A program made the position numbers and the translations under genes. A stretch of DNA of 64,000 bases, taken from the NCBI RefSeq assembly GCF_900142565.1, contig NZ_FRBH01000007.1:186001-250000 (forward strand). Reading direction: 5' to 3'. Below, one piece after another: positions 19,432 through 61,112 of this stretch. The notes below the pieces were generated by a model that searched no databases, had not been told where the DNA came from, and saw only the letters and a list, made by a program, of their open reading frames with translations. The stretch is from Chishuiella changwenlii. Its GTDB lineage: Bacteria > Bacteroidota > Bacteroidia > Flavobacteriales > Weeksellaceae. Position 1 is the stretch's first letter; every line of letters starts with the position of its first letter.

Positions 19432-19505
19432 GGCCGAGTGGCGCAACTGAATAGCGCACTTGATTACGGCTCAAGAGGTTACAGGTTTGAATCCTGTCTC
19501 GGTCA
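19432..19505 (+). tRNA. tRNA-Arg (anticodon ACG)
   Basis: A 74-nt cloverleaf. Acceptor stem GGCCGAG/CTCGGTC with one G-U pair, D stem GCGC/GCGC, anticodon stem CTTGA/TCAAG with loop TTACGGC (anticodon ACG, A34 presumably modified to inosine), T arm ACAGG/CCTGT with TTTGAAT, discriminator A. CCA is not encoded. The identical gene occurs on the minus strand at 61039-61112. Confidence 0.95.
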
Positions 19506-19506
19506 C

Positions 19507-19543
19507 AAAAAAGGCGTTAACTATTTTAGTTAACGCCTTTTTA
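19507..19543 (+). terminator. Terminator after tRNA-Arg
   Basis: An 11-bp stem GGCGTTAACTA/TAGTTAACGCC flanked by A and T runs starts 2 bases after the tRNA. Confidence 0.85.
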
Positions 19544-19607
19544 TTTTAGAAAAAAAATGTCAAATATTTTCATATTCGACATTTGGTATAAATTTAAATG
19601 TATTATT

Positions 19608-20192
19608 TTATTGTTGCTTATTCGCTAAACGCTTTCTAATTGTACTTACAAATTCCTTAGAAACACCTAAATATGAAGCAATATAATATTGCGCTACACG
19701 CTGCGGAATCGTAGGATATACTTTTATAAATTCAAGATAACGATCTGTAGCAGGTTGCGAAATTGTTTTTACCAAACGGTTTTGAAGTGTTACTACATAA
19801 CGTTGCATCATCATTCGGAAAGCTCTTTCAAACTTCGGTACTCTCTGCAATAATTCCTCTTTCGTTTCTGGAGTTAACATATAGATCTCAGTATCTTCCA
19901 ACGTTTCTATAAAAATCTTTGAAGGTGTTTTATTATTAAAAGAATCAATATCAGTAATCCACCAGTCTTCAACGGCGAACAGAAGTGTTACTTCAAATCC
20001 ATTTTCATCAAGATAATACGTTCGTATACAACCTTCTTTTACAAAACCTTCAAACTGACAAATTTCTCCTTCGCGTAGAAGATGTGTTTTCTTAGGAAAT
20101 GTCTGAAGAGTCAGTAAATCTTCATAAATTTTTTCCTCCTCAGCCGTTAAACTAACAAATCGAGAAATGTTTTTAATGATATTTTGAAACAT
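19608..20192 (-). CDS. Crp/Fnr-family transcriptional regulator
   Basis: A 194-residue regulator. Residues about 20-115 form the cyclic-nucleotide-binding-type beta-roll (LREGEICQFEGFVKEGCIRT, LLFAVEDWWITD), but without the standard cAMP phosphate-binding motif. The C-terminal winged helix is RVAQYYIASYLGVSKEFVST. This subtype is common in Bacteroidota and often controls a neighbouring small-molecule stress operon. It is the gene nearest the tRNA and points the same way as the antiporter, esterase, GNAT and dioxygenase genes, so it may regulate that set (inference). The effector is unknown. Confidence 0.85.
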   Translation of the reverse strand: MFQNIIKNISRFVSLTAEEEKIYEDLLTLQTFPKKTHLLREGEICQFEGFVKEGCIRTYYLDENGFEVTLLFAVEDWWITDIDSFNNKTPSKIFIETLEDTEIYMLTPETKEELLQRVPKFERAFRMMMQRYVVTLQNRLVKTISQPATDRYLEFIKVYPTIPQRVAQYYIASYLGVSKEFVSTIRKRLANKQQ

Positions 20193-20307
20193 AAATTTAT
20201 TTTACGGGTGCAAATTAGGAAAAAGTGTGTAAACTTTATTCTTTAGAAGTTCACTTCCTCCGTATTTTTGTTTTCTAGTCACCATTCCGTCAAAAAATTG
20301 GTTTATA

Positions 20308-21918
20308 TTACATATGTCTATTTCCAGTAATTTTTAGCTCATTCAAATCCAATTGAGATTCAGCTTTTCTTATTTCATCATCACTGAATTCCTTTTCGCG
20401 CTTAATTTTAAAAAGTTCCTTTCGTTGCAATGCAAAAATATCAAGCATAATTTCGTGATATTCATTCAGATCGTTTCGTCTATTGGTACACATTTCCAAT
20501 GATTCTAGATGACTTTGTTGTTGTTGAATATCATTTTCAACGGTATTTTTAAAATTCTCTACCAGACTGTTTGTTTCTAGATTAGATGAATACTTTTCAG
20601 TTAATCGGTTAATTGAAAGATTATTCAATCTGATTTGAATACTTGCCTGCTGTTCATGAGACGGGAGAATAGGATCCAATTCACCAATTTTAGTCAATTT
20701 AATAATCAACGGAAGTGTTAAACCTTGAAAGACTAATGTCACAAAAATAACTACAAACGTGATAAAAATAATCAGATTCCTCATAGGAAAAGCTGTCTCG
20801 CTATTCATCATTACAGGAATTGACAAAGCAGTTGCTAGTGATACAACACCACGCATTCCTGCCCACCCAATAATTAGAGGATTTTTCCATCCTGGATTTG
20901 GAGATTTTCTTTCTTTTTTGCTCAACCATCTGGGTACATGAGCCACAGGATAAATCCATAAAAGACGCACTACAATTACAATTAAACTGATGATTAAACC
21001 ATATTTAATACCTTCCATTACAGAAGTTTCACCTAAACCATTTATAATATCAGGAAGTTCTAAACCTATCAAGACGAAAACCAGTACATTCATTACGAAA
21101 ATCAATGTGTTCCAAACACCGGTCATATTTATTCTCGTTATTCCAGTCTTGAAAATCTCATGTGAACGAAACGACATAAACAGTCCACCACTTACTACAG
21201 ACATTACTCCAGAATAATGGAAATGCTCTGCAGCCAAAAATAAAACATAAGGTGTAATTACTGTTAATGCAGCATCAATTGCAGGAGTTGTTGGCAAAAA
21301 CCGATGAATAGCGTAAAAAACGTGTGCTCCTGCAATTCCGACAACAACTCCCATTCCAGCCACTAAAAAGAATTGTCCTGTAGCTTCCTGCATCGAAAAT
21401 ACTCCCGTCATCACAGCTACTAAAGCAAATCTGAAAACGATAAGAGATGAAGCATCATTTATAAGGCTTTCTCCTTCCAACATTGCAATTGTACGTTTCG
21501 GAACTTTAAGACCTTTTAAAACCGTTGTTGCTGCAATGGCATCTGGTGGAGAAACAATTCCGCCTAATAAAAACCCCATTGCCAATGTAAATCCAGGAAT
21601 TAAAGCTTGTGAAGCGAATGCTACAACAATAGAGGTTATAAAAACCAATCCGAAAGCAAGTGATCCAATGGTACGTTTCCATTTCCAGAAATCATTCCAC
21701 GAGGTATACCAAGCAGCTTCATACAATAAAGGAGGGAGAAAAATAAGAAAAATAATATCAGGATCTAGTTGTAAAACCGGAACTCCCGGAATAAAACTGA
21801 TTCCTAAACCTGCTAATACCAAAAATATAGGATAAGCAATTCTAATGCGTTGTGCCAACATTACTAGGAATATTACGACAATTAAAAGTCCGAGAATTAA
21901 AAGGAGTTTTTCGTGCAT
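20308..21918 (-). CDS. Na+/H+ antiporter, CPA1 family
   Basis: A 536-residue monovalent cation:proton antiporter with about 12 transmembrane helices (residues 1-415) and a cytoplasmic helical tail (about 420-536). Family motifs are visible: SPPDAIAATTVLK (residues 123-135) and the ion-binding GESLINDASSLIVF with Asn154-Asp155. WAGMRGVVSLATALSIP is the conserved late segment. It exchanges cytoplasmic Na+ or K+ for H+. In other bacteria such antiporters accompany electrophile-detoxifying genes because acidifying the cytoplasm protects against electrophiles, which fits the neighbouring Mhq-like genes (inference). It starts 54 bases after the esterase stop on the same strand. Confidence 0.93.
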   Translation of the reverse strand: MHEKLLLILGLLIVVIFLVMLAQRIRIAYPIFLVLAGLGISFIPGVPVLQLDPDIIFLIFLPPLLYEAAWYTSWNDFWKWKRTIGSLAFGLVFITSIVVAFASQALIPGFTLAMGFLLGGIVSPPDAIAATTVLKGLKVPKRTIAMLEGESLINDASSLIVFRFALVAVMTGVFSMQEATGQFFLVAGMGVVVGIAGAHVFYAIHRFLPTTPAIDAALTVITPYVLFLAAEHFHYSGVMSVVSGGLFMSFRSHEIFKTGITRINMTGVWNTLIFVMNVLVFVLIGLELPDIINGLGETSVMEGIKYGLIISLIVIVVRLLWIYPVAHVPRWLSKKERKSPNPGWKNPLIIGWAGMRGVVSLATALSIPVMMNSETAFPMRNLIIFITFVVIFVTLVFQGLTLPLIIKLTKIGELDPILPSHEQQASIQIRLNNLSINRLTEKYSSNLETNSLVENFKNTVENDIQQQQSHLESLEMCTNRRNDLNEYHEIMLDIFALQRKELFKIKREKEFSDDEIRKAESQLDLNELKITGNRHM

Positions 21919-21972
21919 AGTTTTATTTTTTTTAGATGTCAGACGGCAAGATGCTAGACTTACACTTAGTGT

Positions 21973-22593
21973 TTATTTAAAGATAATAGAATTAGCTAAT
22001 TCAATTTGCTCTTGATTTATAGAATGTCCAAAATTAACATAGACTTTCTCTGTAACATCAGCATTCATTTCTCTCAAAATATTGGTTGTAGCATAAACTC
22101 GTTCCACTGGAACGTGGAAATCAGGGTTGCTCGTTCCTAAGAAAATTGGAGTTTGTGCAAAATCACCTTTGTAATTTTCACGATTAATTTTTTCACCAAT
22201 AACTCCACCTATAATGGCAACTGCACCACCAAATTTTTGAGCATTTCTTGCTAAAAATTCCAATGTTAAACACGCTCCTTGTGAAAACCCGAAAAAGTAA
22301 ATGTTTTCAGCTTTAATCCCTGCATCCAAAGCAGTTTGGACAGTTTTTCCTACTGTCTCGATTGCTGATGATAACCAAGGTTCGTTTTGTTCTGTTGGTG
22401 CAATGAATGAAAAAGGATACCAAGTTCCGTTCGTAGCTTGTGGTGCCAATAAGGCATAATCTTCCACATTCAAATGCTGAGATAAACTCAAAATATCTTG
22501 TGCACTTCCGCCTCTTCCATGAATCATGATTAAAACATTTTCTGCTTCATTCAATGATTTACCTCCTGTTTTTATATCTAAAATATGACTCAT
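21973..22593 (-). CDS. Carboxylesterase/phospholipase-type alpha/beta hydrolase (MhqD-like)
   Basis: A 206-residue compact serine hydrolase. The oxyanion segment is LIMIHGRGGSAQDIL, the nucleophile is Ser104 in GFSQGACL, the acid is Asp158 in GTSNPDFHVP and the base is His190 in FGHS. The size and motifs match the carboxylesterase 2 / MhqD family. In Bacillus, MhqD acts with the dioxygenase MhqO in resistance to hydroquinones. Here the MhqO-like gene lies about 0.4 kb upstream on the same strand with a GNAT between them, so a joint role in quinone breakdown is a reasonable inference. Cytoplasmic. Confidence 0.87.
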   Translation of the reverse strand: MSHILDIKTGGKSLNEAENVLIMIHGRGGSAQDILSLSQHLNVEDYALLAPQATNGTWYPFSFIAPTEQNEPWLSSAIETVGKTVQTALDAGIKAENIYFFGFSQGACLTLEFLARNAQKFGGAVAIIGGVIGEKINRENYKGDFAQTPIFLGTSNPDFHVPVERVYATTNILREMNADVTEKVYVNFGHSINQEQIELANSIIFK

Positions 22594-22656
22594 TTTATCT
22601 GTATTATTTTAGTTGATGGTATTTTGTTAACTGCTGATAATTTAATTTATAGCTTA

Positions 22657-22953
22657 TTAAGCTTCTTCTTTGAACCAAACGTCTTTGTATTCTTCGGGAT
22701 TTCGTTTGAATTGTGCATGAACGTATGGGCAAAGCGGAACTATTTTTAAATTATTCTCTCTGGCATAAGAAACCAGTTGATTTAATAATAATTTCGCAAA
22801 ACCATTTCCTGCGTATTCGTCATCAACCTCGGTATGATAAACAGTTAATTTATCTTTTATAACCGAGATATCCATTTTACCTGCTTTTTTATCGTCTGAG
22901 AAAAGTTGAACTTCACCTCTTACATTTCCTAAAACTACTTTTGTTGTTTCCAT
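22657..22953 (-). CDS. Small GNAT-type N-acetyltransferase (YjdJ-like)
   Basis: A 98-residue protein of the short GNAT group. The acetyl-CoA-binding segment is VDDEYAGNGFAKLLLNQLV, where the expected R/Q-x-x-G/A loop reads YAGNGFAK. The C-terminal LKIVPLCPYVHAQFKRNPE is the highly conserved end of this subgroup, with a Cys in LCPYV. Its acceptor substrate is not known in any organism I can name. It lies between the dioxygenase and esterase genes, all on the minus strand with gaps of 54-63 bases, so it is likely part of the same transcript. Confidence 0.88.
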   Translation of the reverse strand: METTKVVLGNVRGEVQLFSDDKKAGKMDISVIKDKLTVYHTEVDDEYAGNGFAKLLLNQLVSYARENNLKIVPLCPYVHAQFKRNPEEYKDVWFKEEA

Positions 22954-23007
22954 ACTATTTTTTTGCTTATTGCTAAGATATATTGTTTGTGAAATTTGCG
23001 TAATGAC

Positions 23008-23940
23008 CTATGATAACTTAGGTAATACTTCTTCGATTCTTGAACGTAATGGCTCGTGCTGTTTTGGAAGTTTTAAGTTAGTCCCCAATTCATCTAAAGG
23101 CTCATCTACAGTGAATCCTGGATTGTCAGTTGCAATCTCGAATAAAATACCTCCTGGCTCACGGAAATATAATGAGTAGAAATAATCTCTGTCGATTTTA
23201 GTCGTGATATTTAATCCTGCTGCAACTACTTTTTCACGAAATTCCATTAAAACTTCTTCATCTTTTACTCTAAAAGCAACGTGATGATTAGTTCCTGCCG
23301 CGTTTTTTCCTGACTGGATTTCATCATTCTCAATAATATCAACAATATTAGCTGTTTCAATAGCATTGGTTGCAAATCTGTATCTGTCACCTTCCTTTTT
23401 TTGTAAATCGTATCCGAAAATATCTGTCAATACTTTGATGGTAGGAGCTGCATTTTTCAGTGTTAAAGTAATATTGTGAAAACCTTTCAAACCATTTTCA
23501 TCTTTAATATCATCAGTTACCCAAGGTTTTCTGTCATCTGCTGTTGAAGATTCGATGAACTGTAATTGTAAACCGTCTGGATCTTGAAATGAAATCAGTT
23601 TTTCACCAAAAATCTCTCCTTCTTCAAAATCTACATGAAATTCTTGAAGTCTATTTTTCCAAAATTCTAAGCTACCTTTTGGAACTGAATATCCGATATG
23701 TGTTGCCAAACCCGATCCGTTAGTTCCTTTACTAATTCTCTCCCAAGGAAAGAAAGTTAGGATTGTTCCTGGAGTTCCTTCTTCGTTTCCGAAATAAAAG
23801 TGATACGTAGTTGGATCGTCAAAGTTGACAGTTTTCTTTACTAATCTTAATCCTAAAACCTGAGTGTAAAAAGCTAAATTTCTATTTGCGTTTCCTGCGA
23901 TTGCTGTAATGTGGTGCAATCCTAATATTCTATTTTCCAT
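23008..23940 (-). CDS. Ring-cleaving dioxygenase, VOC family (MhqO-like)
   Basis: A 310-residue protein of two VOC (glyoxalase/extradiol dioxygenase) halves. The first starts at GLHHITAIAGNANRNLAFY (metal-ligand His at residue 9 or 10) and the second half carries GTNHHVAFRV and the ligand glutamate in GGILFEIATDNPG. These supply the His-His-Glu Fe(II) site. Close relatives are MhqA/MhqO, which open hydroquinone or catechol rings and are induced by quinones. It is the first gene of the minus-strand set with the GNAT and esterase. A TAnnTTTG element lies 27 bases upstream. Confidence 0.9.
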   Translation of the reverse strand: MENRILGLHHITAIAGNANRNLAFYTQVLGLRLVKKTVNFDDPTTYHFYFGNEEGTPGTILTFFPWERISKGTNGSGLATHIGYSVPKGSLEFWKNRLQEFHVDFEEGEIFGEKLISFQDPDGLQLQFIESSTADDRKPWVTDDIKDENGLKGFHNITLTLKNAAPTIKVLTDIFGYDLQKKEGDRYRFATNAIETANIVDIIENDEIQSGKNAAGTNHHVAFRVKDEEVLMEFREKVVAAGLNITTKIDRDYFYSLYFREPGGILFEIATDNPGFTVDEPLDELGTNLKLPKQHEPLRSRIEEVLPKLS

Positions 23941-23967
23941 TTTGTTTATTATTTAATTTTGATATGA

Positions 23968-23975
23968 CAAATTTA
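23968..23975 (-). promoter_or_regulatory. -7 element for the dioxygenase operon
   Basis: TAAATTTG on the minus strand, 27 bases before the dioxygenase ATG. Confidence 0.45.
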
Positions 23976-24204
23976 TGACGAGTGAAAATGCTACACATTT
24001 AACTAGTTTAATAAATCACATTTCTATGAATTTAATTTTGAAAGAATATTACTTCTATATAAAAACGATATTCAATACTATAATGATACTTTTTAAAACA
24101 GATAATCTTAGGTAGTTCGAATTTTGGAAAAATGCTTTTAAAATTTTTTTCCATTAAAATATACGAAATTAAACTAGATTAATTTTTACGTGTTTTGGCT
24201 GCTA

Positions 24205-24212
24205 TACATTTG
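24205..24212 (+). promoter_or_regulatory. -7 element for the haloperoxidase-type hydrolase
   Basis: TACATTTG matches TAnnTTTG, 39 bases before the ATG at 24252. Confidence 0.5.
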
Positions 24213-24251
24213 CTAAAGAATTAAAACAATTAACATTTAAAAAATATTATT

Positions 24252-25073
24252 ATGAGCACATTAAAATTAAAAGACGGAACAGAGATTTTTTATAAAGACC
24301 AAGGAGAAGGACCAGTATTAATGTTTCACCATGGGTGGCCATTATCATCTGACGATTGGGATGCACAAGTAATTTTCTTTCTTCAGAGAGGTTACAGAGT
24401 AATTTCTCATGACAGAAGAGGGCATGGTCGTTCTAGTCAAGATATTTATAATCATACAATAGAGCAATATGCTTCTGATGTTGCAGAGTTGGTTGAATTC
24501 TTAGGTTTGAAAGATGTTGTTCACATCGGTCACTCTACGGGAGGAGGTGAAGTTATTCGTTATGTTAACAAATATTCTAAAGGAAGAGCTAAAAAAGCAG
24601 TTTTAATAAGTGCAGTTCCTCCAGTAATGGTAAAAAGTGAAAGCAATCCTGATGGAGTTCCAATGGAAGTTTTTGATGGAATAAGAGAGCAGACCTTGAA
24701 CAATAGAAATCAATTTTATATTGACTTAACTTTCCCTTTCTACGGTTATAATAGAGAAGGTGCCGATATAAAAGAAGGTGTACAAAGAAATTGGTGGAGA
24801 CAAGGAATGATGGGTGGTATCGTAGCTCATTATGATGGAATAAAAGCATTTTCTGAAACTGATTTTACTGAAGATTTGAAAGCTGTGGATATTCCTGTTT
24901 TGGTTCTTCATGGTGAAGATGACCAGATTGTTCCAATTGAAAATTCTGCAATAAAATCTGCAAAACTGTTGAAAAATGCAAAATTGATTACATACCCAGG
25001 TTTTTCTCATGGAATGCCAACTACGGAGCACGAAACGATTAATAAAGATCTTTTAGAGTTTATTAAAGAGTAA
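24252..25073 (+). CDS. Alpha/beta hydrolase, cofactor-free haloperoxidase/arylesterase type
   Basis: A 273-residue cytoplasmic alpha/beta hydrolase. The oxyanion segment is FHHGWPLSSDDWDAQ, the nucleophile is Ser95 in GHSTGGGEV, the acid lies in VLHGEDDQIVP (about residue 223) and the base in GFSHGMPTTEH (about residue 252). This matches bacterial non-heme chloroperoxidases/aryl esterases, which work as esterases or perhydrolases in vivo. The natural substrate is unknown. It is transcribed divergently from the MhqO-like set and ends at a terminator that is part of the 81-bp direct repeat described below. Confidence 0.92.
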   Translation: MSTLKLKDGTEIFYKDQGEGPVLMFHHGWPLSSDDWDAQVIFFLQRGYRVISHDRRGHGRSSQDIYNHTIEQYASDVAELVEFLGLKDVVHIGHSTGGGEVIRYVNKYSKGRAKKAVLISAVPPVMVKSESNPDGVPMEVFDGIREQTLNNRNQFYIDLTFPFYGYNREGADIKEGVQRNWWRQGMMGGIVAHYDGIKAFSETDFTEDLKAVDIPVLVLHGEDDQIVPIENSAIKSAKLLKNAKLITYPGFSHGMPTTEHETINKDLLEFIKE

Positions 25074-25081
25074 TTAGAAAT

Positions 25082-25162
25082 AAAAAGCTCATCAATTTTG
25101 ATGAGCTTTTATATTTCTATATATTTTCTTCTAGTATTTCGTTTTCATTAGTTGGTTTAATA
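25082..25162. repeat. 81-bp direct repeat, left copy (contains a terminator)
   Basis: Bases 25082-25162 match 31259-31339 with one difference (T25132 versus C31309). The first 30 bases are a hairpin terminator (AGCTCATCAA/TTGATGAGCT) for the hydrolase gene. The last bases form the stop codon and final Tyr codon of the OYE gene. In the right copy the same bases encode the C-terminus of a membrane protein, so the left copy is likely the derived one. Confidence 0.93.
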
Positions 25163-26254
25163 CAACTCAAAATCTTTTAATTCCGCAGTTGGTCTTAAAG
25201 TTTTCTCAGCGTCAAATTCTTTTAAAGGACGTCCTTCCTTTATTTTTAATGGAAAGTCGTGGTTTGCTAATGCAGATTTGCCAATCGTCACTAAATCTGC
25301 TACTCCTTCTGAAATGATTGATTTTGCCGAATTTTCTGAATCAATTTTACCATTTAATAAAATAGGTATTTGCAAAGTTTTTCTTGCAATCTGAGCCAAT
25401 GAAAGAATTTCAAGGGTTTTATATTTATTAGTATCAAAAGCAGGAGCTGTAGCATCAAATTCAGTTAAATGAACATAATCAACTCCGGATTTTTCAACAG
25501 TTTTAAATATGAACTCCGCTTCTTCTTCATTCTTCCATTTATGAAAATAATCATTAACTTTTCCTTGAGAAAGTCTTATTCCAACAACAAAATCATGGCT
25601 AACATTCTTTTTAATTTCCTTAATAATATCAACATAAATTCTCAATCTATTTTCAATATTGCCTCCATACTCATCATTTCTGGTATTACTATATGGAGTA
25701 AGAAATTGGTCTAGAAGATAACCATTTGCACCATGAATCTCGACTCCGTCAAAACCTGCAATCTCTGCGTTCTTAGCAGCTTTAACAAAAGAATGAATAA
25801 TTTCATTAATATCATTTTTAGAAGCAGATTTAGGTATAGCATAATTACCATTTCCAAAATAGAAATCCAATTGTTGCCCTTTTGGTTGTACTGATGAAGG
25901 CGCAATTGTTTCGTTTAAATAATAATTGCCTTGAGAAAGACCTCCTGAATGCTGAATTTGCATAATAATTTTTGCACCATTAGCTTTCACATCATCAACA
26001 ATATTTTTCCATCCATCAATGTGTGTATCTAAAGCTATTCCCGGTTGTAATCTATAAGTCTGACTGTATTTTGTATCAATATAATTTCCTTTCGTGATAA
26101 TCAATCCAAAACCTCCTTTTGCAAAACTAGTATAATAATTTTTCATTTTTTCAGTAGGAATTCCATCTTCTGTTGCACTAATTCTGGTCATTGGAGCTAA
26201 AGCAAATCTGTTTTTTACATTTAAATTTCCAATTTTAAATTCATGAAATAACAT
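25157..26254 (-). CDS. Old yellow enzyme family NADH:flavin oxidoreductase (alkene reductase)
   Basis: A 365-residue FMN-dependent TIM-barrel enzyme. It opens MLFHEFKIGNLNVKNRFALAPMTRI and contains IMQIQHSGGLS, the substrate-anion-binding EIHGANGYLLDQFL (His and Asn four residues apart) and TPYSNTRNDEYGGNIENR. The family reduces C=C bonds of alpha,beta-unsaturated carbonyls, nitroesters or quinones with NAD(P)H and protects against electrophiles. Length is normal, but the last codon and stop lie inside the 81-bp repeat, so the C-terminal tail may have been set by the insertion event. It is divergent from an HxlR regulator that probably controls it. Confidence 0.93.
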   Translation of the reverse strand: MLFHEFKIGNLNVKNRFALAPMTRISATEDGIPTEKMKNYYTSFAKGGFGLIITKGNYIDTKYSQTYRLQPGIALDTHIDGWKNIVDDVKANGAKIIMQIQHSGGLSQGNYYLNETIAPSSVQPKGQQLDFYFGNGNYAIPKSASKNDINEIIHSFVKAAKNAEIAGFDGVEIHGANGYLLDQFLTPYSNTRNDEYGGNIENRLRIYVDIIKEIKKNVSHDFVVGIRLSQGKVNDYFHKWKNEEEAEFIFKTVEKSGVDYVHLTEFDATAPAFDTNKYKTLEILSLAQIARKTLQIPILLNGKIDSENSAKSIISEGVADLVTIGKSALANHDFPLKIKEGRPLKEFDAEKTLRPTAELKDFELY

Positions 26255-26320
26255 AATAATAACTCTTTATTTTGTACAAAATTACACTTGAAAAAACTTA
26301 TTAATGCTAATTACAACCAC

Positions 26321-26347
26321 TTGTCTGTTACGAACAATTTTGTCTGT
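26321..26347. promoter_or_regulatory. Candidate HxlR operator (direct repeat)
   Basis: TTGTCTGT occurs at 26321-26328 and again at 26340-26347, 19 bases apart, in the 149-bp OYE-hxlR divergent promoter. No binding data; assigned by position and repetition only. Confidence 0.35.
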
Positions 26348-26403
26348 CGTCGATTAAGATATACAAATCATGATTTTGTAACTTTGTATATAATTTAGAG
26401 AAA

Positions 26404-26772
26404 ATGAGTAATAGAAAAGAAAATTCGACTTATTCTATCAATGAAAAAATTGTTCACGAAGAATGTGACCTAATTTATGCTATTAACAAATTGGGAGGAA
26501 GATGGAAACTTTATATTCTGAGCAAATTAGAAGGTAGAAAGATGCGTTATAAAGAGCTACGAGATGAGATTCATCCGATTACTGAAAGAATGCTGACACT
26601 GCAGTTAAAAGCCTTAGAAGAAGATAAACTTGTTAAACGAACAGTCTATGCTGATGTACCGCCAAGAACAGAATATGAACTGACTGAATACGCAAAAAAA
26701 CTAATCCCGATTTGGAATTCTTTAATTGAATGGGGAGGAAGTCATAAAGAGATTATGAAAGAAGATTTATAA
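26404..26772 (+). CDS. HxlR-family winged-helix transcriptional regulator
   Basis: A 122-residue regulator of the HxlR/DUF24 family: EECDLIYAINKLGGRWKLYI begins the core, followed by GRKMRYKELRDEIHPITERM as the DNA-reading helix-turn-helix and VPPRTEYELTEYAKKLIPI as the wing and dimerisation end. Cys21 falls at the position of the redox-active cysteine of quinone-sensing members such as YodB, although the usual CP is CD here. Divergent placement beside an old yellow enzyme strongly suggests electrophile-responsive control of that gene (inference). Confidence 0.92.
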   Translation: MSNRKENSTYSINEKIVHEECDLIYAINKLGGRWKLYILSKLEGRKMRYKELRDEIHPITERMLTLQLKALEEDKLVKRTVYADVPPRTEYELTEYAKKLIPIWNSLIEWGGSHKEIMKEDL

Positions 26773-26841
26773 TTGATGAACTTAGAGTAAATAATTCTAA
26801 GTTCATCAATTAATACAAAGACAAAAACCATGAAGAGAATG

Positions 26842-27906
26842 TTAATTTATTTTTTCAAAGATCTTAGACATAGTTTCTTTATCAAGACTTTCCATATCTA
26901 TTAATTTCAGAGATTTTACCATTTTCAAAGTTGATGTTTTGTATTTCAAAAAATGTGGTGTCTGCAAATGAAACTGATACGCTTCTTCATCCGCATAAAT
27001 TTCTACAATTCTTATCCTAGCAGGATTTTCCTTTTGATACATCGGAAAAATAGCAATCACGCCTTTCTCTAATTTTATAGAAGTCGAAGCTTCTTCTTTC
27101 AGAATTGAATTATATTCTTCCAAAAATTCAGGAAAAATGTCTATTTCGGAAATACGAATCATCATATCGTTTTTGATAATAGGAATGAGTGGTTCTCCAA
27201 TTATTTTCCTAACAGTATTGGCTTGAGTTTTATTAACAGATTCTTGTATTAAATTAGCTAATTCCGCTAATTGATCTTCAGTAATTCCTGTATTTTTCCC
27301 CATGACGATATGGGATTTCAATTGAGATTCAACACCTGTTAAAGAAGCTAAAGCAGAAACTGTCACTAATTCTCTTTGCTGATAAGTGAGAACATCACTC
27401 ACAAAAATATCCGCAAATAAATGTTCTTTTAGAAAAGCATCAATTCTTGGAGCAAACTCTCCAAAACCAGTTGCTGGTTTAGTTTGTGGCGTTTTTGTTA
27501 ATGCTTCCAATGTTTTTCTGCCTTTTTCGTATTTATCAATAACATTATTTTCAATGATAATTTTTTTTCCTTCAACATCATTGATTCCTTTTGTTTTTCT
27601 TTCTTCTAAAACTACTTTAAAAGTATTAATAGCATTCAGACTTCTCGGAAAACCGCAATACGCATACAATTGAACCAATACTTCTTTAATTTCATTAATA
27701 GTCAAACCAGAATCTAATCCAGCATTCAGCTGAACTTTCAAATTTTCAAGATTTCCAGTTGCCGTAAGTGAAGAAATTTTCACCAAGCTTTGTTCTTTAT
27801 CATTCAGATTTTGATGAGTCTTATTTTCTTGTGCATTCATTTTTGTCATACTAAATGTGAGAACAAAAAGAATGATCCATTGTAGAAACTTGTTTTTGCT
27901 CTTCAT
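26842..27906 (-). CDS. Exported double carboxymuconolactone decarboxylase-domain protein with C-terminal ABM domain
   Basis: A 354-residue protein with signal peptide (cleaved after MNAQ, about residue 25). Two CMD-type helical domains follow (about residues 35-105, with LVQLYAYCGFPRSLNAI, and 140-235, with LTYQQRELVTVSALASLTG). A C-terminal antibiotic-biosynthesis-monooxygenase-like ferredoxin fold spans about 245-340 (MMIRISEIDIFPEFLEEYN). The AhpD CxxC pair is absent, so peroxidase activity is unlikely. The fused ABM domain and export signal are unusual. It follows the cupin gene by 6 bases, so the two are co-expressed. Confidence 0.83.
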   Translation of the reverse strand: MKSKNKFLQWIILFVLTFSMTKMNAQENKTHQNLNDKEQSLVKISSLTATGNLENLKVQLNAGLDSGLTINEIKEVLVQLYAYCGFPRSLNAINTFKVVLEERKTKGINDVEGKKIIIENNVIDKYEKGRKTLEALTKTPQTKPATGFGEFAPRIDAFLKEHLFADIFVSDVLTYQQRELVTVSALASLTGVESQLKSHIVMGKNTGITEDQLAELANLIQESVNKTQANTVRKIIGEPLIPIIKNDMMIRISEIDIFPEFLEEYNSILKEEASTSIKLEKGVIAIFPMYQKENPARIRIVEIYADEEAYQFHLQTPHFLKYKTSTLKMVKSLKLIDMESLDKETMSKIFEKIN

Positions 27907-27912
27907 AAAAAA

Positions 27913-28473
27913 TTATTTTTTATTGGCTTCATTAAATTCTTCATCAGACACAGCTTCCAACCATGTATTCTGATTGGTTTGCGGATTTCCATTTGTAGCT
28001 AAATGCGAGAACCAACTTTCTGCAGTCGCACCATGCCAATGCTCAACATTCGGAGCAATTTCTACGATATCACCAGCTTTTAAACGACGGGCAGGTTTTC
28101 CTCTCTCTTGATATAAACCTTCACCACCTACAACAATCAAAAGTTGTCCACCAGTGTGAGTGTGCCAATTGTTTCGACAACCTGGTTCAAATGTAACATT
28201 AGAAAGAGGAATACTTAAATCTTTATTATTTGTAAGTTGTGCTAAATAGGACTTGCCTATAAAATATTTTGCAAAAGCAGTGTTTTCTTCACCTATCGGA
28301 AAGTCACTTATTTTAGGGATATTTGTACTCATTTTCTTAGATTTTATTTTGTTTGAATTTACTACATTTTGTGCTAAAATGTCTAAAGGATTTAGTAGCA
28401 TTAAGCCTACACTAACCAAAGCTGTCTGCTCAATAAATTTTCTTCTCGAATTTTGATTGTTGTTTTCTTCCAT
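27913..28473 (-). CDS. Cupin-domain protein with Tat-like signal
   Basis: A 186-residue protein. The N-terminus has a twin-arginine-type motif SRRKFIEQ followed by a hydrophobic run, so export in folded form is likely. The cupin barrel shows the metal-binding motif 1 in WHTHTGGQLLIVVGGEG and motif 2 in GDIVEIAPNVEHWHGA, with all the usual His ligands present. The family resembles small cupins often found fused or adjacent to CMD proteins. It lies 6 bases upstream of the exported CMD-ABM gene and 3 bases downstream of the acetyltransferase stop. Substrate unknown; a lactone or aromatic compound is a guess from the pairing. Confidence 0.87.
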   Translation of the reverse strand: MEENNNQNSRRKFIEQTALVSVGLMLLNPLDILAQNVVNSNKIKSKKMSTNIPKISDFPIGEENTAFAKYFIGKSYLAQLTNNKDLSIPLSNVTFEPGCRNNWHTHTGGQLLIVVGGEGLYQERGKPARRLKAGDIVEIAPNVEHWHGATAESWFSHLATNGNPQTNQNTWLEAVSDEEFNEANKK

Positions 28474-28476
28474 GTT

Positions 28477-29043
28477 TTATGATTCAATTGTTTTGATGAT
28501 TTTTGCAGGAACTCCTCCTACCACCACGTTATCTGGAACATCTTTGGAAACGACTGCTCCAGCAGCGATAACTGCATTTTCGCCAATCGTAATTCCTGGA
28601 AGAATTGTCGCATTAGCTCCAATCCACGCATTTCGTTTGATGAGAATAGATTTACCTATTAATCCTTTTCTGTGTTGAGGTTCTAAAGGATGATTTTCAG
28701 TTATCAGACTAACTTTCGGACCGATTAAAACATCGTCTTCAATGGTAATTCCGCCTAAGGTCAGAAAAGTACAATCGAAGTTGATGAATACATTTTTACC
28801 GATGTTAAGATGTTTTCCGTAGTTGATGTAAATAGGTGTAAACACCGCTACATTCTCCAATTTTTTACCGACAATTTCACTTAATATTTTCAAAATATTA
28901 TCCGGTTCATTGGAATTATTGAGTTGAAGCAATTGCTTCTTAACTTGATAAGAAGCTTCTTTCAATTTGTGAATTTCCGGGTCGTCTGGCATTATTGTTT
29001 CGCCATTTTTTAGTTTAGTGAAAATATTTTCTTTAAATCTCAT
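28477..29043 (-). CDS. Sugar O-acetyltransferase (maltose/galactoside type, left-handed beta-helix)
   Basis: A 188-residue acetyl-CoA-dependent transferase of the LacA/Maa/NodL group. The N-terminal cap (MPDDPEIHKLKEASYQVKKQ) precedes hexapeptide-repeat coils (GKNVFINFDCTFLTLGGI onward). The catalytic His lies in TENHPLEPQHRKG and the last coil is GENAVIAAGAVVSKDVPDN. It acetylates a sugar hydroxyl in the cytoplasm; the acceptor is not known. It lies just upstream of the cupin/CMD pair (3-base gap) and 72 bases downstream of the hydrolase gene on the same strand. A second ATG within the first 20 residues is possible (MPDDPE). Confidence 0.92.
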   Translation of the reverse strand: MRFKENIFTKLKNGETIMPDDPEIHKLKEASYQVKKQLLQLNNSNEPDNILKILSEIVGKKLENVAVFTPIYINYGKHLNIGKNVFINFDCTFLTLGGITIEDDVLIGPKVSLITENHPLEPQHRKGLIGKSILIKRNAWIGANATILPGITIGENAVIAAGAVVSKDVPDNVVVGGVPAKIIKTIES

Positions 29044-29115
29044 TTTTAATATTTAGAAAAAAAATGCTAAATCTGCAGTTTTATTAAACAGATTTAGCTA
29101 TTGGAATAATATCAA

Positions 29116-30162
29116 TTATTTTAAATTGATTCTGAAGAAATTATCCAGTTTTTCAAATGGAATTACATCCACTTTATCATATAAATCGACGTGAACTGCA
29201 TTTGGGATAATCATCAATTCTTTCGGTTCAGAAGCTACTTTGTAAATATCTTCGCTCATATATTTAGAATGTGCATTCTCTCCAGCAATCAGTAACATTG
29301 GTCTTGGCGAAATTTCTTTGATATAACTCAGCATTACTGAATTCGCAAAAGATAAAGAGTTGGTTTTTGTCCAGCCTTTATTGGAATTTAAAGAACGTTT
29401 GTGATAACCTCTCGGCGTTTTGTAATAATCAAAATAATCTTTCACAAACTGAGGTTCATCACCGTTTAATTTTTCTGGTAAATGGCTTGTCGGATATTCA
29501 GGTTTTCCGTTTTCGGCATCTATCCAACGTTGCAGACTCATTGTTTCAAAAGCTTTAGTTCGTTCTTCCTGAGTCATTTTATCATAATAACCTTTGGCAT
29601 TTACTCTCGAAATATCATAAGCACTGGTCGTTGCGACAGCTTTTACTCGTTTGTCTGCAATGGTTGCATTTAAGGCGAAAGTTGCGAAACCACAAATTCC
29701 TATGATTCCGATTTTGTTTCTATCCACATTGTTTTGAAGTCCTAAGAAATCAACTGCTGCACTGAAGTCTTCAGTATTGATATCAGGTGAAGCAATATCT
29801 CTCGGCTCTCCTCCACTTTCGCCTGTGTAAGAAGGATCGAAAGCGATAACTGCAAAACCTCTTTCCGCCATTTGATTGGCATACAAACCAGAAGATTGCT
29901 CTTTCACTGCACCGAAAGGTCCGCTGATTGCCAACGCTGCCAATTTTTCGTTTCCTGTATTTTTTGGAAGATATAAATCTCCGGAAAGGGTTATTCCGTA
30001 ACGGTTTTTAAAGGTAACTGCTTTTCGTGTAACCTTATCACTTAATTTGAATGTATAATGTTCTGTAGTTTCCATTTTCTTTGAATTTGATTTTTTATTC
30101 TGTGCGAATGCTTGTCCGATCAAAAGAAAGGATAAAGCCATCACTGTTGTTATTATTTTCAT
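29116..30162 (-). CDS. Exported alpha/beta hydrolase with a cysteine at the nucleophile position
   Basis: A 348-residue protein with signal peptide (cleaved after AFAQ, residue 21). It has the alpha/beta-hydrolase order: AISGPFGAVKEQSSGLYANQ, FAVIAFDPSYTGESGG, the nucleophile elbow GIIGICGFATFAL with Cys157 instead of Ser, AGENAHSKYMSED as the acid region, and a His in NAVHVDLYDK (about 329). A Cys nucleophile recalls dienelactone hydrolases. Similar YcjY/DUF-type hydrolases are common beside AraC regulators and aldehyde or quinone reductases. The AraC gene starts 90 bases upstream on the same strand. Confidence 0.87.
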   Translation of the reverse strand: MKIITTVMALSFLLIGQAFAQNKKSNSKKMETTEHYTFKLSDKVTRKAVTFKNRYGITLSGDLYLPKNTGNEKLAALAISGPFGAVKEQSSGLYANQMAERGFAVIAFDPSYTGESGGEPRDIASPDINTEDFSAAVDFLGLQNNVDRNKIGIIGICGFATFALNATIADKRVKAVATTSAYDISRVNAKGYYDKMTQEERTKAFETMSLQRWIDAENGKPEYPTSHLPEKLNGDEPQFVKDYFDYYKTPRGYHKRSLNSNKGWTKTNSLSFANSVMLSYIKEISPRPMLLIAGENAHSKYMSEDIYKVASEPKELMIIPNAVHVDLYDKVDVIPFEKLDNFFRINLK

Positions 30163-30252
30163 ATCTGAATTTTGTTTAAAAAATTACTGATACAAAATTA
30201 AAAACAGCGAAACGCTAACAGTTAATGATAATCAAACCAAAAATTAAGAAAA

Positions 30253-31131
30253 TCAAACTTCGGCTAAACGAAATGCTTTTGGATTAGTTCCAGTTTGCTT
30301 TTTAAAAAAATTATTGAAATACGTTGGATAATCGAACCCAAGTGCGAATGCTATTTCTGAAATATTCCAGTCGGTGTGCTGCAACAATGCTTTTGCTTCT
30401 GTAAGAATACGTTCCGAGATATGAGTCGTTGTAGATTTTCCAGTTACTTCTTTTACAGCACGATTGAGATAATTGACGTGTACATTTAGGTTTTTCGCAA
30501 ACTCTTGAGCAGATTTTAGTTGCAAAGATTGATCTGTAGTTTCAATAGGAAATTGTCTTTCCAAAAGTTCAAGAAAAACGGAAGATAACCTTGACGCAGC
30601 ATTTTTCTTTTGGTCGAAATCTTCGGCAGGTTCCAGTTTCAAAGATTCGTGGATTATCAGGCTGATGTAGTTGCGTATCAACTCATCTTTATAAACATAA
30701 TCACTTTCCTGTTCAGCAATCATCTTTTGGAAAAGAGTATTGAGAAAAAGTCTCTGCTCTTCAGTAATTTTCAGAACGGGAGTTCCGCCAATTTTAAAGA
30801 AAGAAGACTGCTGTAAGCTTTCAGAACGTTCAGAATTCTTAAAAAACTCCTCAGAAAAAAGAATAGTATAGCCTTTATAAGCCGTTGAAATTGTTTCCCA
30901 AGAATACGGAATATGCGGATTTCCAAAAAAAAGAACCGTTCCTTCCTGCTCGAAGCTTTTATCAGAATAATGAATTTTACTTTTCCCTGTTGTCAAGCAT
31001 ATTTTATAGAATTCTTTTCTGCTGTACACGCGAGTATCGCTTCCGTCCTGCTCAATCTGGAATGCACGGAAACCTTTTAGTTTTAATTCAGTATTAAACT
31101 CCGAAACAACTCTTTTTACCTTTTCTTTCAT
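30253..31131 (-). CDS. AraC-family transcriptional regulator
   Basis: A 292-residue regulator. Residues about 20-170 form a cupin-like sensing domain (VLFFGNPHIPYSWETISTAY). The C-terminal 100 residues hold the double helix-turn-helix: SAQEFAKNLNVHVNYLNRAV and the conserved WNISEIAFALGFDYPTYFNN ending in FFKKQTGTNPKAF. This subtype is frequent in Chryseobacterium-like genomes upstream of an inducible operon. It probably controls the downstream hydrolase-acetyltransferase-cupin-CMD genes (all minus strand). It is the last gene before the right 81-bp repeat. Confidence 0.9.
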   Translation of the reverse strand: MKEKVKRVVSEFNTELKLKGFRAFQIEQDGSDTRVYSRKEFYKICLTTGKSKIHYSDKSFEQEGTVLFFGNPHIPYSWETISTAYKGYTILFSEEFFKNSERSESLQQSSFFKIGGTPVLKITEEQRLFLNTLFQKMIAEQESDYVYKDELIRNYISLIIHESLKLEPAEDFDQKKNAASRLSSVFLELLERQFPIETTDQSLQLKSAQEFAKNLNVHVNYLNRAVKEVTGKSTTTHISERILTEAKALLQHTDWNISEIAFALGFDYPTYFNNFFKKQTGTNPKAFRLAEV

Positions 31132-31258
31132 TTTTTAAAGTTAAGAAAATCAAATAATATTTAATTTAGTTTTATAAGTAAGAACTCTTAAATAATTATA
31201 TAGTTTAAAAGTTAAATTGACTTTTTTGTGAAATAATTATATACAATATCACTCACAA

Positions 31259-31339
31259 AAAAAGCTCATCAATTTTGATGAGCTTTTATATTTCTATATA
31301 TTTTCTTCCAGTATTTCGTTTTCATTAGTTGGTTTAATA
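31259..31339. repeat. 81-bp direct repeat, right copy (contains a terminator)
   Basis: Direct copy of 25082-25162 with one mismatch. The left 30 bases are the hairpin terminator and the remainder encodes the C-terminal tail PTNENEILEENI of the membrane protein at 31294-31731, so this looks like the ancestral copy. Confidence 0.93.
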
Positions 31340-31731
31340 ATTAAGAAATACATACAGTTTGCAAACCATGTCATCCAAAATAGATAGAAACCGAAATGGA
31401 AACTTGCTTTTAATAATCGGTGAGATGTTTCTGTAAAATCATGATAAGTATAATACAATCCTCCAAAGCCCATTATAAGAAATACCATAGGTAAAATGAA
31501 TTGTTTTAGCTTAGAAACGTTCTTTTTTTGCCAAATACTGAAAATTGTAAATAGAATTACTTGAATCACAAAAAACAATAGCGCTGTTTTCCACCACGAT
31601 TTAAGAATTGCATATTCATTGTAAATGATGGTGATACCAACTCGACCAATAAATGACATCTTCGAAATTAAAATTCCTGATAATAGAGAAGAAAACGCTA
31701 AAACCAAAACGGCTATAATTCTATTTTTCAT
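31294..31731 (-). CDS. Four-helix integral membrane protein, unknown function
   Basis: A 145-residue protein with about four transmembrane helices (residues 5-22, 48-66, 78-96 and 108-128) and a short acidic tail NENEILEENI. Charged residues (KKNVSKLKQ between helices 2 and 3) put the loop in the cytoplasm. No family recognised. The 3' 46 bases of the gene are duplicated 6.2 kb away as part of the 81-bp repeat, so this gene marks the probable original insertion site of the neighbouring block. Own terminator inside the repeat. Confidence 0.72.
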   Translation of the reverse strand: MKNRIIAVLVLAFSSLLSGILISKMSFIGRVGITIIYNEYAILKSWWKTALLFFVIQVILFTIFSIWQKKNVSKLKQFILPMVFLIMGFGGLYYTYHDFTETSHRLLKASFHFGFYLFWMTWFANCMYFLIIKPTNENEILEENI

Positions 31732-31827
31732 ACTTACTTAAAATTAAAAACATTATTCAAAAAAATAATCTCCAGAATAGATTCAAATTACTTAATATAA
31801 ATATACCAAATAAAGAAATCATTTAAA

Positions 31828-46434: not shown

Positions 46435-46593
46435 TTTTATATATTTAAATTATTTAAGTATTTAAAATTAGAAAAAACTTCTAAAATAATGTATAAAGGT
46501 TATGTTATTTATACCTTATAAATTCTAATTATTAAAAATAATTTTTCTACTACTTGCTATTAGTCTATTCACTTATATTGTTTTATAAAAAGT

Positions 46594-46624
46594 AAAAAAA
46601 TCCATCTGATTGCTCAGATGGATT
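46594..46624 (-). terminator. Terminator, first of three near-identical copies
   Basis: Stem AATCCATCTGA/TCAGATGGATT, loop TTGC, T run on the minus strand. The same hairpin follows the next two genes at 47590-47620 and 48503-48532. Confidence 0.85.
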
Positions 46625-46629
46625 GATGT

Positions 46630-47571
46630 TTATTTAATATTATTTATAATTTCTCTTTGTTTGTCTAATGTATATTCAGTTTTACAATCTATAGTTAATT
46701 CTGATTTATACATTTTTATGTAATTATCTAAGTCTGAACAATCTTTTAGAAAGAAAAATTCTTTTGACTTCACATCAAAAATAACTCCTTTCATATAATT
46801 GATATCATGAAATGTAAAGTTATTTTTAACAAGATTAATATAGCTTTGAGAATAATCTTCTTTCTTATTGTTTGATACAATTGCATCAGTAACAGCTCCT
46901 ACCGCTGCTCCTATTGCACCTCCAGCAATAGCAAATATTGAAGTGAAATCACTATCCATTCCCTTTGGTAATTCAAAATATAAATGATTTTCACTTCCTG
47001 CTTTCACTCTAACATAAGCAAAGCTAGGAATGCCACTACCAAGATTAGTTTTACTTTTTTTAGTTAATTTAGAAAATTGCTTCAAACTAAAATAAACATC
47101 TCCATTTTGTACTATAGCAAAGTATTTATTTTGCTGAAACTCTGGGAACTTTCCTTTCCTGTCGTAAAAATTAACTAAATCATCAGAGTATTCAAATGCC
47201 TCCGCCTGCATATTAGGTTTCTTTTCGAAAGTGATTGCCTCAGGAGTCTTGTTAATAAAACTCTCTATCGTTAAATATAGTCCATCAGGATAGTTTAAAG
47301 TTCCTTCATAATAAGTTTGTTTTATATCAGGAATGCTTTTAGAATAATCAATAGAATCAAATTCTAAGTCAATATCTTTTAAACGAGCATAAACTAATGC
47401 GTTTTTAAAATTATCAGTATTAAATTTAATAAACTTACCGTCTTTTAAGTATTGTACGTTTGTAATTTCAAACTTTTCATTTGTTTTTTTAGAAGTAATT
47501 GTTGCTTTCTTTATGTATTGACCAAATGCAAATGAGGTAAGTAGAGTAAATAAGGTAAAGGTATATTTCAT
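46630..47571 (-). CDS. Secreted glycine-zipper protein, paralogue A
   Basis: A 313-residue exported protein from the ATG at 47571; a start 30 bases earlier would read through the preceding terminator and is rejected. The signal peptide MKYTFTLFTLLTSFAFGQ is nearly identical to that of the next gene. The middle has YFAIVQNGDVYFSLKQFSKL and the C-terminal half carries a hydrophobic glycine-zipper (AIAGGAIGAAVGAVTDAIVS, about residues 224-243) that may insert in a membrane. No named domain. A tandem paralogue with shared terminator indicates local duplication. Confidence 0.75.
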   Translation of the reverse strand: MKYTFTLFTLLTSFAFGQYIKKATITSKKTNEKFEITNVQYLKDGKFIKFNTDNFKNALVYARLKDIDLEFDSIDYSKSIPDIKQTYYEGTLNYPDGLYLTIESFINKTPEAITFEKKPNMQAEAFEYSDDLVNFYDRKGKFPEFQQNKYFAIVQNGDVYFSLKQFSKLTKKSKTNLGSGIPSFAYVRVKAGSENHLYFELPKGMDSDFTSIFAIAGGAIGAAVGAVTDAIVSNNKKEDYSQSYINLVKNNFTFHDINYMKGVIFDVKSKEFFFLKDCSDLDNYIKMYKSELTIDCKTEYTLDKQREIINNIK

Positions 47572-47589
47572 TTTAATTTTTTGTAAAAG

Positions 47590-47620
47590 TAAAAAATCCA
47601 TCCGATTACTCAGATGGATT
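47590..47620 (-). terminator. Terminator, second copy
   Basis: Same hairpin as at 46594, with one mismatch in the stem (ATCCGA versus ATCTGA). Confidence 0.8.
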
Positions 47621-47624
47621 GATA

Positions 47625-48488
47625 TTATTTAATATTATTTATCATTAATTTTCTAACATTCTGAATATTATATTCTTCCTTATTTTCACAATCAAAATTC
47701 ATATTGAGATTAGTCCCGAAATATTCATTGAATTTCTTGCAGCCTTGTACTTTGTAAAACTTTTTTTCGCTGTTCAGTAAAACAATAGGTACATAACCAC
47801 TATGATTCGAAGAAAGTGCTCCTGCAATAGCTCCACCAATCATTCCTCCTGCAACTCCTCCTGCAACCATCCAAAAAGTAGAATTTGAGGATACTGGAAA
47901 ATCCGTATAATAATAGTCATCATTTTTAAATTTAACTCTAACGTATCTCATACTTTGTGTTCCCAAATTAGCAGAACCTTTCATTTTTTTCGATTCATTT
48001 TTATTAATTCCTTTTACTCCAAAATATAAATCATTATAATATACAACTGCAAATGCAGTTCTTAGAATTTCATCATCGGATCTTCTTTTAAAAGTCATTA
48101 AATCTTTAGGTCTTTCTAAAAAATCTTCTCCATCTGGTCTGCCAGCTAATTTCTCAGTAGAAGAAGGTTTTCTATTATAAAAATCTTCAATTGTTTCATA
48201 AATTCCTTCTGGTAAATCATTTTCGAAATATGTTTCTTTAAGTTTAGGAATTTCTTTAGAAAAGTTAATTGAATCAAATTCAATATTAGAAACTTTTTTG
48301 ATTTTTACAGTCTGTAGAGTATAAGGAACCTCTTTTTCTACAAATTGATATTCTTTCTCTCCGTAAATAATTTCTTCTGTTTCAATCTTTTTTCCATTAT
48401 CTAAAACAATGGTTGCATTTTTAACATATTGTCCGAAAGTAAATGAAGAAAGTAGAGTTAATAAAGTAAATGTGTATTTCATTTTCAT
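47625..48488 (-). CDS. Secreted glycine-zipper protein, paralogue B
   Basis: 287 residues with signal peptide MKMKYTFTLLTLLSSFTFGQ (an ATG two codons later is equally possible). It shares with paralogue A the N-terminus, the segment TYFENDLPEGIYETIEDFYN (TYYEGTLNYPDGLYLTIESF in A), the AVVYYNDLYFGVKGINKN segment, a glycine-zipper WMVAGGVAGGMIGGAIAGAL, and the YNIQNVRKLMINNIK end. The zipper suggests insertion in or contact with a membrane. No known function; probably periplasmic or outer-membrane associated. Confidence 0.75.
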   Translation of the reverse strand: MKMKYTFTLLTLLSSFTFGQYVKNATIVLDNGKKIETEEIIYGEKEYQFVEKEVPYTLQTVKIKKVSNIEFDSINFSKEIPKLKETYFENDLPEGIYETIEDFYNRKPSSTEKLAGRPDGEDFLERPKDLMTFKRRSDDEILRTAFAVVYYNDLYFGVKGINKNESKKMKGSANLGTQSMRYVRVKFKNDDYYYTDFPVSSNSTFWMVAGGVAGGMIGGAIAGALSSNHSGYVPIVLLNSEKKFYKVQGCKKFNEYFGTNLNMNFDCENKEEYNIQNVRKLMINNIK

Positions 48489-48502
48489 TTTTTTGTAAAT
48501 GT

Positions 48503-48532
48503 AAAAAATCCATCTGATTGCTCAGATGGATT
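48503..48532 (-). terminator. Terminator, third copy
   Basis: Hairpin AATCCATCTGA/TCAGATGGATT identical to the first copy, 23 bases past the prolyl oligopeptidase stop codon. Confidence 0.85.
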
Positions 48533-48554
48533 GATATTTATTTAATATTGGATA

Positions 48555-57579: not shown

Positions 57580-57589
57580 TAAAAAATAG

Positions 57590-57623
57590 AAAGTCCATTT
57601 AAATTTTTTAAATGGACTTTTTT
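57590..57623. terminator. Bidirectional terminator after der
   Basis: A 14-bp stem AAAGTCCATTTAAA/TTTAAATGGACTTT with a 3-base loop. The stem core resembles the terminator at 60941-60976. Confidence 0.9.
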
Positions 57624-57634
57624 ATTGATTATGA

Positions 57635-58204: not shown

Positions 58205-58206
58205 TG

Positions 58207-59016: not shown

Positions 59017-59159
59017 TTTTTAATCTATATTTAAATTAATTATGATGTAAAATTATTTGTAAAAAAAAGTTCATTACTTGCCATTTGGCAAAAGCAATAT
59101 TATATTTTTAGTTTTAAAATGATGTAGTTAAAATCTACTATTATCATCTTGTTTTATTT

Positions 59160-59167
59160 TACATTTG
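59160..59167 (+). promoter_or_regulatory. -7 element for the AraC regulator
   Basis: TACATTTG, 18 bases before the ATG at 59186. It overlaps the TTG of a longer alternative frame, another reason to reject that start. Confidence 0.5.
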
Positions 59168-59185
59168 TTTCATAATCAATTTAGA

Positions 59186-60067: not shown

Positions 60068-60102
60068 ATAGATTTGTCCTTATTAGTTGCTGTTTCATCT
60101 GC

Positions 60103-61036: not shown

Positions 61037-61038
61037 AG

Positions 61039-61112
61039 TGACCGAGACAGGATTCAAACCTGTAACCTCTTGAGCCGTAATCAAGTGCGCTATTCAGTTG
61101 CGCCACTCGGCC
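61039..61112 (-). tRNA. tRNA-Arg (anticodon ACG), second copy
   Basis: 74 nt, base-for-base identical to the tRNA at 19432-19505 but on the opposite strand. Same structure and anticodon ACG. The only shared upstream sequence is the promoter (TATATTTGCAGTC). Confidence 0.96.

Follow-up and report, generated by a model that had tools for sequence, protein, structure and literature searches.

In tRNA-associated genomic islands a tRNA gene's 3′ end marks the start of the accessory DNA, and cis-mobilizable elements can occur in tandem at the 3′ end of a gene. A locus in Chishuiella changwenlii shares features with both, and also with the integrants left by homology-facilitated illegitimate recombination. 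It lies in a stretch of 64,000 nucleotides (contig NZ_FRBH01000007.1, positions 186,001 to 250,000), called the window below and numbered from its first base. Here 11.75 kb of accessory DNA (19507-31258) stands between the 3′ end of a tRNA-Arg(acg) gene and the terminator of memb, the name we give to the gene of a resident membrane protein of 145 amino acids (aa). The left copy of an 81-bp direct repeat, a duplicate of the end of memb, divides this DNA into two blocks, termed L and R. Integrants of the third kind have been generated by conjugation in E. coli. Of 60 clones, 56 gave the polymerase chain reaction (PCR) product diagnostic of a duplication, and in the 14 that were sequenced a stretch of 109-950 bp from the end of the homologous gene had been duplicated (PMC3240628). 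The authors ascribe the duplications to a single crossover by a circle after partial loss of homology, while the other 4 of the 60 clones were one-ended events with deletion (PMC3240628).

As in these integrants, part of the end of one resident gene is directly repeated next to foreign DNA. The difference is that the assay (PMC3240628) used a laboratory plasmid, with duplications of 109-950 bp in the 14 clones sequenced, whereas 81 bp and a natural gene block are involved here. As in a tRNA-associated island, a tRNA 3′ end, here that of tRNA-Arg, is where the accessory DNA starts, but no integrase was found among the block proteins scanned, and the only likeness to the tRNA at the far end is TCACAAAAAA (10 bp). 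With tandem cis-mobilizable elements the locus shares integrase-less blocks that are parted by gene-end repeats; it differs in lacking, among the matches listed, a repeat on the outer side of block L, and in that the site is not conserved. Searches of the open-licence literature on Empedobacter islands, on Empedobacter tRNA-Arg and on islands together with illegitimate recombination showed no title or abstract opening that concerns this site. Our analysis shows that both blocks are foreign to the site, that the repeat is the end of memb, that the site is empty in the relatives and that the flanks of the two tRNA-Arg genes have been swapped. What we infer from comparing sequences is how the recombination ran, which block was added first and the way in which the DNA entered. 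We think it rather probable that the two foreign blocks were added successively, the second by homologous exchange together with an illegitimate join that duplicated 81 bp.

The duplicated end of memb and the empty site

The two copies of the repeat lie at 25082-25162 and 31259-31339, with a start-to-start spacing of 6177. A repeat search of the window recovered exactly the coordinates given in the first-pass annotation of this DNA, and the same identity, 80 of 81 nucleotides. The host genome comprises 3.44 Mb in 23 contigs. Among the 41 matches listed by a genome-wide search (40 of 61 candidates scored), these two copies alone are full length (E 1.6e-36 and 5.0e-35), and the remainder are partial, with scores of 50.9 bits at most. 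A chance origin of the likeness is excluded (E ~1e-36).

The right copy sits in its native position, as the end of memb. It consists of the terminator and the last 14 codons of memb, the stop codon and one further base, and the sequence and translations bear out the annotation on this point. The left copy begins 8 bases past the stop codon (25073) of an alpha/beta hydrolase gene and takes in the final Tyr codon and the TAA stop of an OYE-family gene. It had been described as the terminator of the hydrolase gene with the stop codon of OYE, and this description holds. The sole mismatch between the copies, CTA/CTG, leaves the amino acid unchanged in the memb frame. Each copy folds into a terminator-like hairpin with a T-rich tail, at −22.7 kcal/mol on both strands for the left copy and −15.8 and −15.4 kcal/mol for the right. 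None of 200 shuffled controls matched the energy in any of the four folds (two copies, two strands). The longer stem of the left copy comes from pairing between its outer flank, TAGAAATA, and TATTTCTA of the repeat.

The gene memb (31294..31731, minus strand) forms the right border of the accessory region. It is present in 12 of the 13 genus relatives searched, and in all 12 it adjoins pfkB; its neighbours in the window are pfkB and hisS. The relatives recovered through memb are Empedobacter tilapiae, stercoris, sedimenti, falsenii and brevis, and Algoriella xinjiangensis. No Pfam or NCBIfam family matched memb. The names pfkB, hisS, pheS, der, mnmE and FecB-like were assigned by reading translations, and for two of the genes named in this way NCBIfam gives no more than kinase and binding-protein matches below the cut-off. 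In each of the 12 memb-carrying relatives a tRNA-Arg(acg) gene lies 52-92 bases past the last aligned memb base, with its 3′ end toward memb, and the site is free of both blocks. Downstream of memb, all six of the named relatives examined have a hairpin built of identical AGCTCATC-GATGAGCT arms, and for this reason we regard the terminator hairpin as resident. The C-terminal tail of memb varies among the relatives.

This arrangement contradicts one part of the first-pass annotation, which took the hydrolase and memb genes for former convergent neighbours sharing one terminator. The neighbour of memb in 12 of 12 cases is tRNA-Arg(acg), and the hydrolase is an import, so that hydrolase-terminator-memb would be at most an intermediate. 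Alignment of related genomes, which had been suggested as a check, gave a site without either block in all 12, but a single-copy hydrolase-repeat-memb join in none of the 13.

Two blocks foreign to the site

The accessory region is wider than the block first proposed: it starts at the 3′ end of tRNA-Arg, at 19507. The tRNA-Arg(acg) gene at its left border (19432..19506, plus strand) was identified by ARAGORN, Rfam, flank scores and synteny, and between 19000 and 32000 of the window tRNA is the sole RNA family to reach Rfam gathering scores. The GC fraction is 0.332 in block L and 0.325 in block R, and 0.292 and 0.294 in the flanks.

Block L (19507..25081) encodes a Crp-like regulator, an Na+/H+ antiporter (a_cpa1), a phospholipase/carboxylesterase, a small GNAT protein, a glyoxalase-fold protein and the alpha/beta hydrolase (Pfam, NCBIfam). 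A family genome of another genus (G572, locus L205) has the same gene order, with 87-93% aa identity and one extra paralogue. When 197 genomes of the family were searched at the DNA level, 96 of them (the window genome included) matched block L at E <=1e-30, mostly from genera g21 and g9, which may be Chryseobacterium. Within the genus only G004 and G007 reach this limit besides the window genome, and G002 and G013 hold weaker, short pieces. The last gene of the block, the hydrolase (24252..25073, plus strand; Pfam), for which the left repeat serves as terminator, is 34-35% identical near full length to its counterparts within the genus, with shorter pieces at 42% or less, and up to 95% identical in aa to those in other genera of the family. 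The memb hairpin does not occur downstream of hydrolase homologues in any of the 12 and 4 other-genus 3′ flanks examined. These comparisons show an imported hydrolase whose own kind has other terminators in the flanks examined. It is barely credible that both blocks are old and have been lost from every relative, with gene conversion keeping the two repeats alike. Nothing speaks for such vertical inheritance beyond its being possible, and it conflicts with the uninterrupted arrangement in 12 of 12 memb-carrying relatives and with a hydrolase that is as much as 95% identical to one in another genus but 34-35% identical, near full length, to those in its own.

Block R (25163..31258) contains genes for OYE, HxlR, a CMD/ABM fusion, cupin, a hexapeptide acetyltransferase, a hydrolase and AraC (Pfam). 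The OYE-family NADH:flavin oxidoreductase (25157..26254, minus strand) is full length (Oxidored_FMN 4.6e-79), and the HxlR-type regulator (26404..26772, plus strand; HxlR 7.9e-26) is followed by a one-strand run of CMD/ABM, cupin, acetyltransferase, hydrolase and AraC genes (26842..31131, minus strand) to which related runs are found at loci L137, L139, L219 and L220. As a unit block R is absent from all 13 genus relatives searched, 12 of which have the empty site; the OYE-to-AraC genes are foreign here, as the annotation supposed. Parts of the block do occur in the genus: G013 has a CMD-cupin-acetyltransferase run with 74% DNA identity, and G002 an acetyltransferase-hydrolase pair with ~70%. 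The best-scoring OYE matches are 39% identical in 148 family genomes and 43% in 395 class genomes (E limit 1e-70), and the best found, at 53%, is on a Priestia plasmid.

The OYE protein ends in KDFELY* in the window and in KDFEL* in the Priestia plasmid homologue, and five plasmid homologues end no more than two residues from the KDFEL* position; a sixth row, L147, had been translated in the wrong frame and is left out. Truncation of OYE by the join is rejected on this ground. With OYE whole, the left join sits at the OYE stop codon. We also considered a plasmid origin for 24000-31800 and rejected it: 423 plasmid records match pieces of it and none covers 80%, the best coverage among 20 listed being 16% (two genes). 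An exact search of viral contigs with a 46-base piece of the repeat gave no match.

As to function, one regulator is similar, at scores below the cut-offs, to the redox regulators RrpA/RrpB, and the block L esterase is weakly similar to MhqD (38.9 bits, where the cut-off is 325). Together with OYE and CMD/ABM, they suggest a role in the handling of reactive aromatic or quinone compounds.

No integrase, transposase, recombinase or phage family was found in 13 proteins of blocks L and R (Pfam and NCBIfam; PHROGs not searched). The scan took in 13 of the 16 open reading frames (ORFs) of at least 90 aa in 19507-31258, leaving out three overlapping ORFs of 95-101 aa and all shorter ones. Block R does have direct repeats at both ends, as an integrase-type genomic island would, with no recombinase gene inside among the 13 proteins scanned. 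Nor did these 13 proteins include a transposase, which the flanking insertion sequences of a composite transposon would carry, and the repeats are only 81 bp long. Two marks of insertion-duplication by homologous and illegitimate exchange are seen: the repeat belongs to the end of a resident gene (memb, with its terminator), and the DNA between the repeats is foreign to the site. To this extent the insertion with duplication of 81 bp proposed in the annotation stands.

The repeats might instead be the attachment sites of a cis-mobilizable element without an integrase, block R having been moved in trans. Direct repeats at a gene 3′ end do look like attachment sites, and another repeat pair in this genome lies at the end of mnmE. 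We nevertheless consider this very unlikely. A tandem array would have a copy at each outer end, but there are two full-length copies and no third among the matches listed, which leaves the outer margin of block L without one. The variable tail of memb makes a poor candidate for a conserved attachment site, the terminator belongs to memb in the relatives, and the 13 proteins scanned include no integrase. The repeat as an attachment site is disfavoured by its absence from the outer end of block L and by the varying memb tail.

The two tRNA-Arg genes and the proposed additions

In the relatives the second tRNA-Arg(acg) gene adjoins pheS and a FecB-like gene, followed by der and tRNA-Phe (four of four loci). 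In the window the second gene lies at 61038..61112 (minus strand; ARAGORN, flank scores), with an upstream flank like the memb side and a downstream flank like the pheS side. We compared the flanks with those in four genomes of the 13 relatives. The upstream flank of the tRNA at 19432 is that of the pheS-side tRNA-Arg of the relatives, to which it is closer in all four. The upstream flank of the tRNA at 61038 is of the memb side in three, with G013 slightly the opposite (29.0 against 29.5), and its downstream flank is of the pheS side in all four. The downstream flank of the tRNA at 19432 resembles neither side, as expected if DNA was inserted there. The der gene and tRNA-Phe are found on the 61038 side of the window, in inverted orientation. 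That the tRNA at 19432 is simply the memb-side tRNA of the relatives is rejected, its upstream flank being of the pheS side in four of four genomes. Most likely the two inverted tRNA-Arg genes recombined and the intervening DNA was inverted, which would have brought memb opposite the tRNA at 19432.

We propose that the gap between tRNA-Arg and the terminator of the convergent memb gene took up two blocks, one after the other. The second addition would have involved a homologous exchange in or beside the 3′ end of memb, and an illegitimate join of the OYE stop codon to memb some 14 codons from its end. This could have come about by a single crossover of a circle on which R was joined to the memb end. 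The alternative is a linear fragment that recombined at one end only and came from a strain holding the other block at the same place. The outcome would be an 81-bp copy of the terminator and memb end stranded between the blocks. The circle route fits the E. coli assay better than the linear one, and we keep both. Of the two mechanisms put forward in the annotation, single-crossover integration is documented for such duplications (PMC3240628), while tandem duplication of a gene segment is unneeded. Judged by the geometry, a crossover between the two copies would delete 6,177 bp, with hydrolase-terminator-memb left behind.

The bases TCACA, ahead of the A-run in the right copy, resemble a tRNA 3′ end and match the final bases of the tRNA found at this place in the relatives. 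Across 1.42 Mb, both strands, TCAC precedes 10 of 4134 A-runs (5-9 bases, then G), this site included. If TCACA is a remnant of the tRNA, block R would have joined the old site directly, with block L and the copy of the memb end arriving later; this is the reverse of the order in the annotation. Capture of block R at a staggered double-strand break offers a different origin for the repeat, in which 81-nt single strands were filled in to give a target duplication and the donor needed no homology. In keeping with this, the scan of 13 block proteins gave no recombinase, and each copy retains one outer neighbour (hydrolase on the left, memb on the right) in the manner of a target duplication. It leaves TCACA beside the right copy unexplained, and we think it unlikely.

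Several points weigh against the successive addition of the blocks by homologous and illegitimate exchange. The TCACA likeness is one short match that was spotted after the fact. At 81 bp the repeat is short for a crossover, and lies below the 109-bp minimum of the assay. One-ended events were 4 of 60 in the assay and had deletions, which speaks against the linear route, and the assay itself used conjugation in E. coli, which is not of the host's group. A recombinase remnant could hide in the unscanned ORFs, either the three overlapping ones of 95-101 aa or those that are shorter. A ComEC-domain protein is present, yet 10 of 14 control genomes also have one and it says little. Natural competence is reported for Riemerella anatipestifer. 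Riemerella columbina is likewise naturally competent, but Flavobacterium johnsoniae was not (PMC7965970).

A more tentative reading, which we hold to be possible but doubtful, is that different strains carry alternative blocks in the gap between tRNA-Arg and memb, which would serve as a slot for them. Recombination between two strains would then have stacked both, and the duplicated gene end with its terminator would be the fossil of that event.

Similar repeats in the genome and their meaning

How general are such repeats in this genome? We scanned 1.42 of the 3.44 Mb (41%) for direct repeats of 40-400 bp, at least 90% identical and 0.8-20 kb apart, and 11 pairs fell within these limits. An automatic hairpin test flagged two of the 11, the 81-bp pair and a 45-bp pair (C10:275803/276991). 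The hairpin of an 87-bp pair at mnmE was seen by eye and missed by the automatic test, and the other eight pairs were not inspected for gene ends. The 45-bp pair (C10:275803-275844 and 276991-277035) consists of near-identical terminator-like stretches, 91% identical over 45 bp and 1.1 kb apart.

At mnmE the 3′ end of the gene and a hairpin are duplicated (C9:216776-216862 and 223509-223595, loci L213/L214; 87 bp, 96.6%). The repeats enclose a 6.6-kb block with genes for OYE and for SnoaL-like, luciferase-like, SDR and LysR proteins, the last four assigned by reading. A third related copy (C9:210979-211045) shares the inner end of the mnmE block, as expected for tandem site-specific elements, and the adjacent block encodes an AAA/OLD-type ATPase and an HNH protein. 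No integrase was recognised by eye among the ORFs listed for these blocks. The locus looks like a set of tandem elements at the 3′ end of mnmE (trmE), which is reported to be the site of SGI1.

Two further sets of repeats lie in the window itself. Between der and the second tRNA-Arg an accessory block of Crp-like, SDR, AraC and SDR genes (57630-60930) is bracketed by terminators at 57579-57629 and 60931-60981. These are 78% identical over 51 bp, a weaker likeness than that of the 81-bp pair, and the relatives examined at the der-side site carry one such terminator. Three direct repeats at 46581-46661, 47577-47657 and 48489-48569, 64-81% identical to the reference, lie between and around two related genes, and look like a local gene duplication.

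The change seen here is of an ordinary kind, though instructive, and its moderate interest lies in how clearly it can be read. It provides a clean natural case of gene gain in which no integrase or transposase was found among the proteins scanned. The site can be seen in its empty state, and so can the tRNA at the border, the scar that the join left and, for one of the blocks, a cluster of the donor type. If strains with a single block exist, the order of stacking and the route would be directly readable from them. If the gap is indeed a slot for alternative blocks, each block gained would arrive with a ready-made terminator; and if the pairs at mnmE and, more weakly, at der are the same footprint, duplicated terminators would then mark the gain of blocks without a recombinase of their own.

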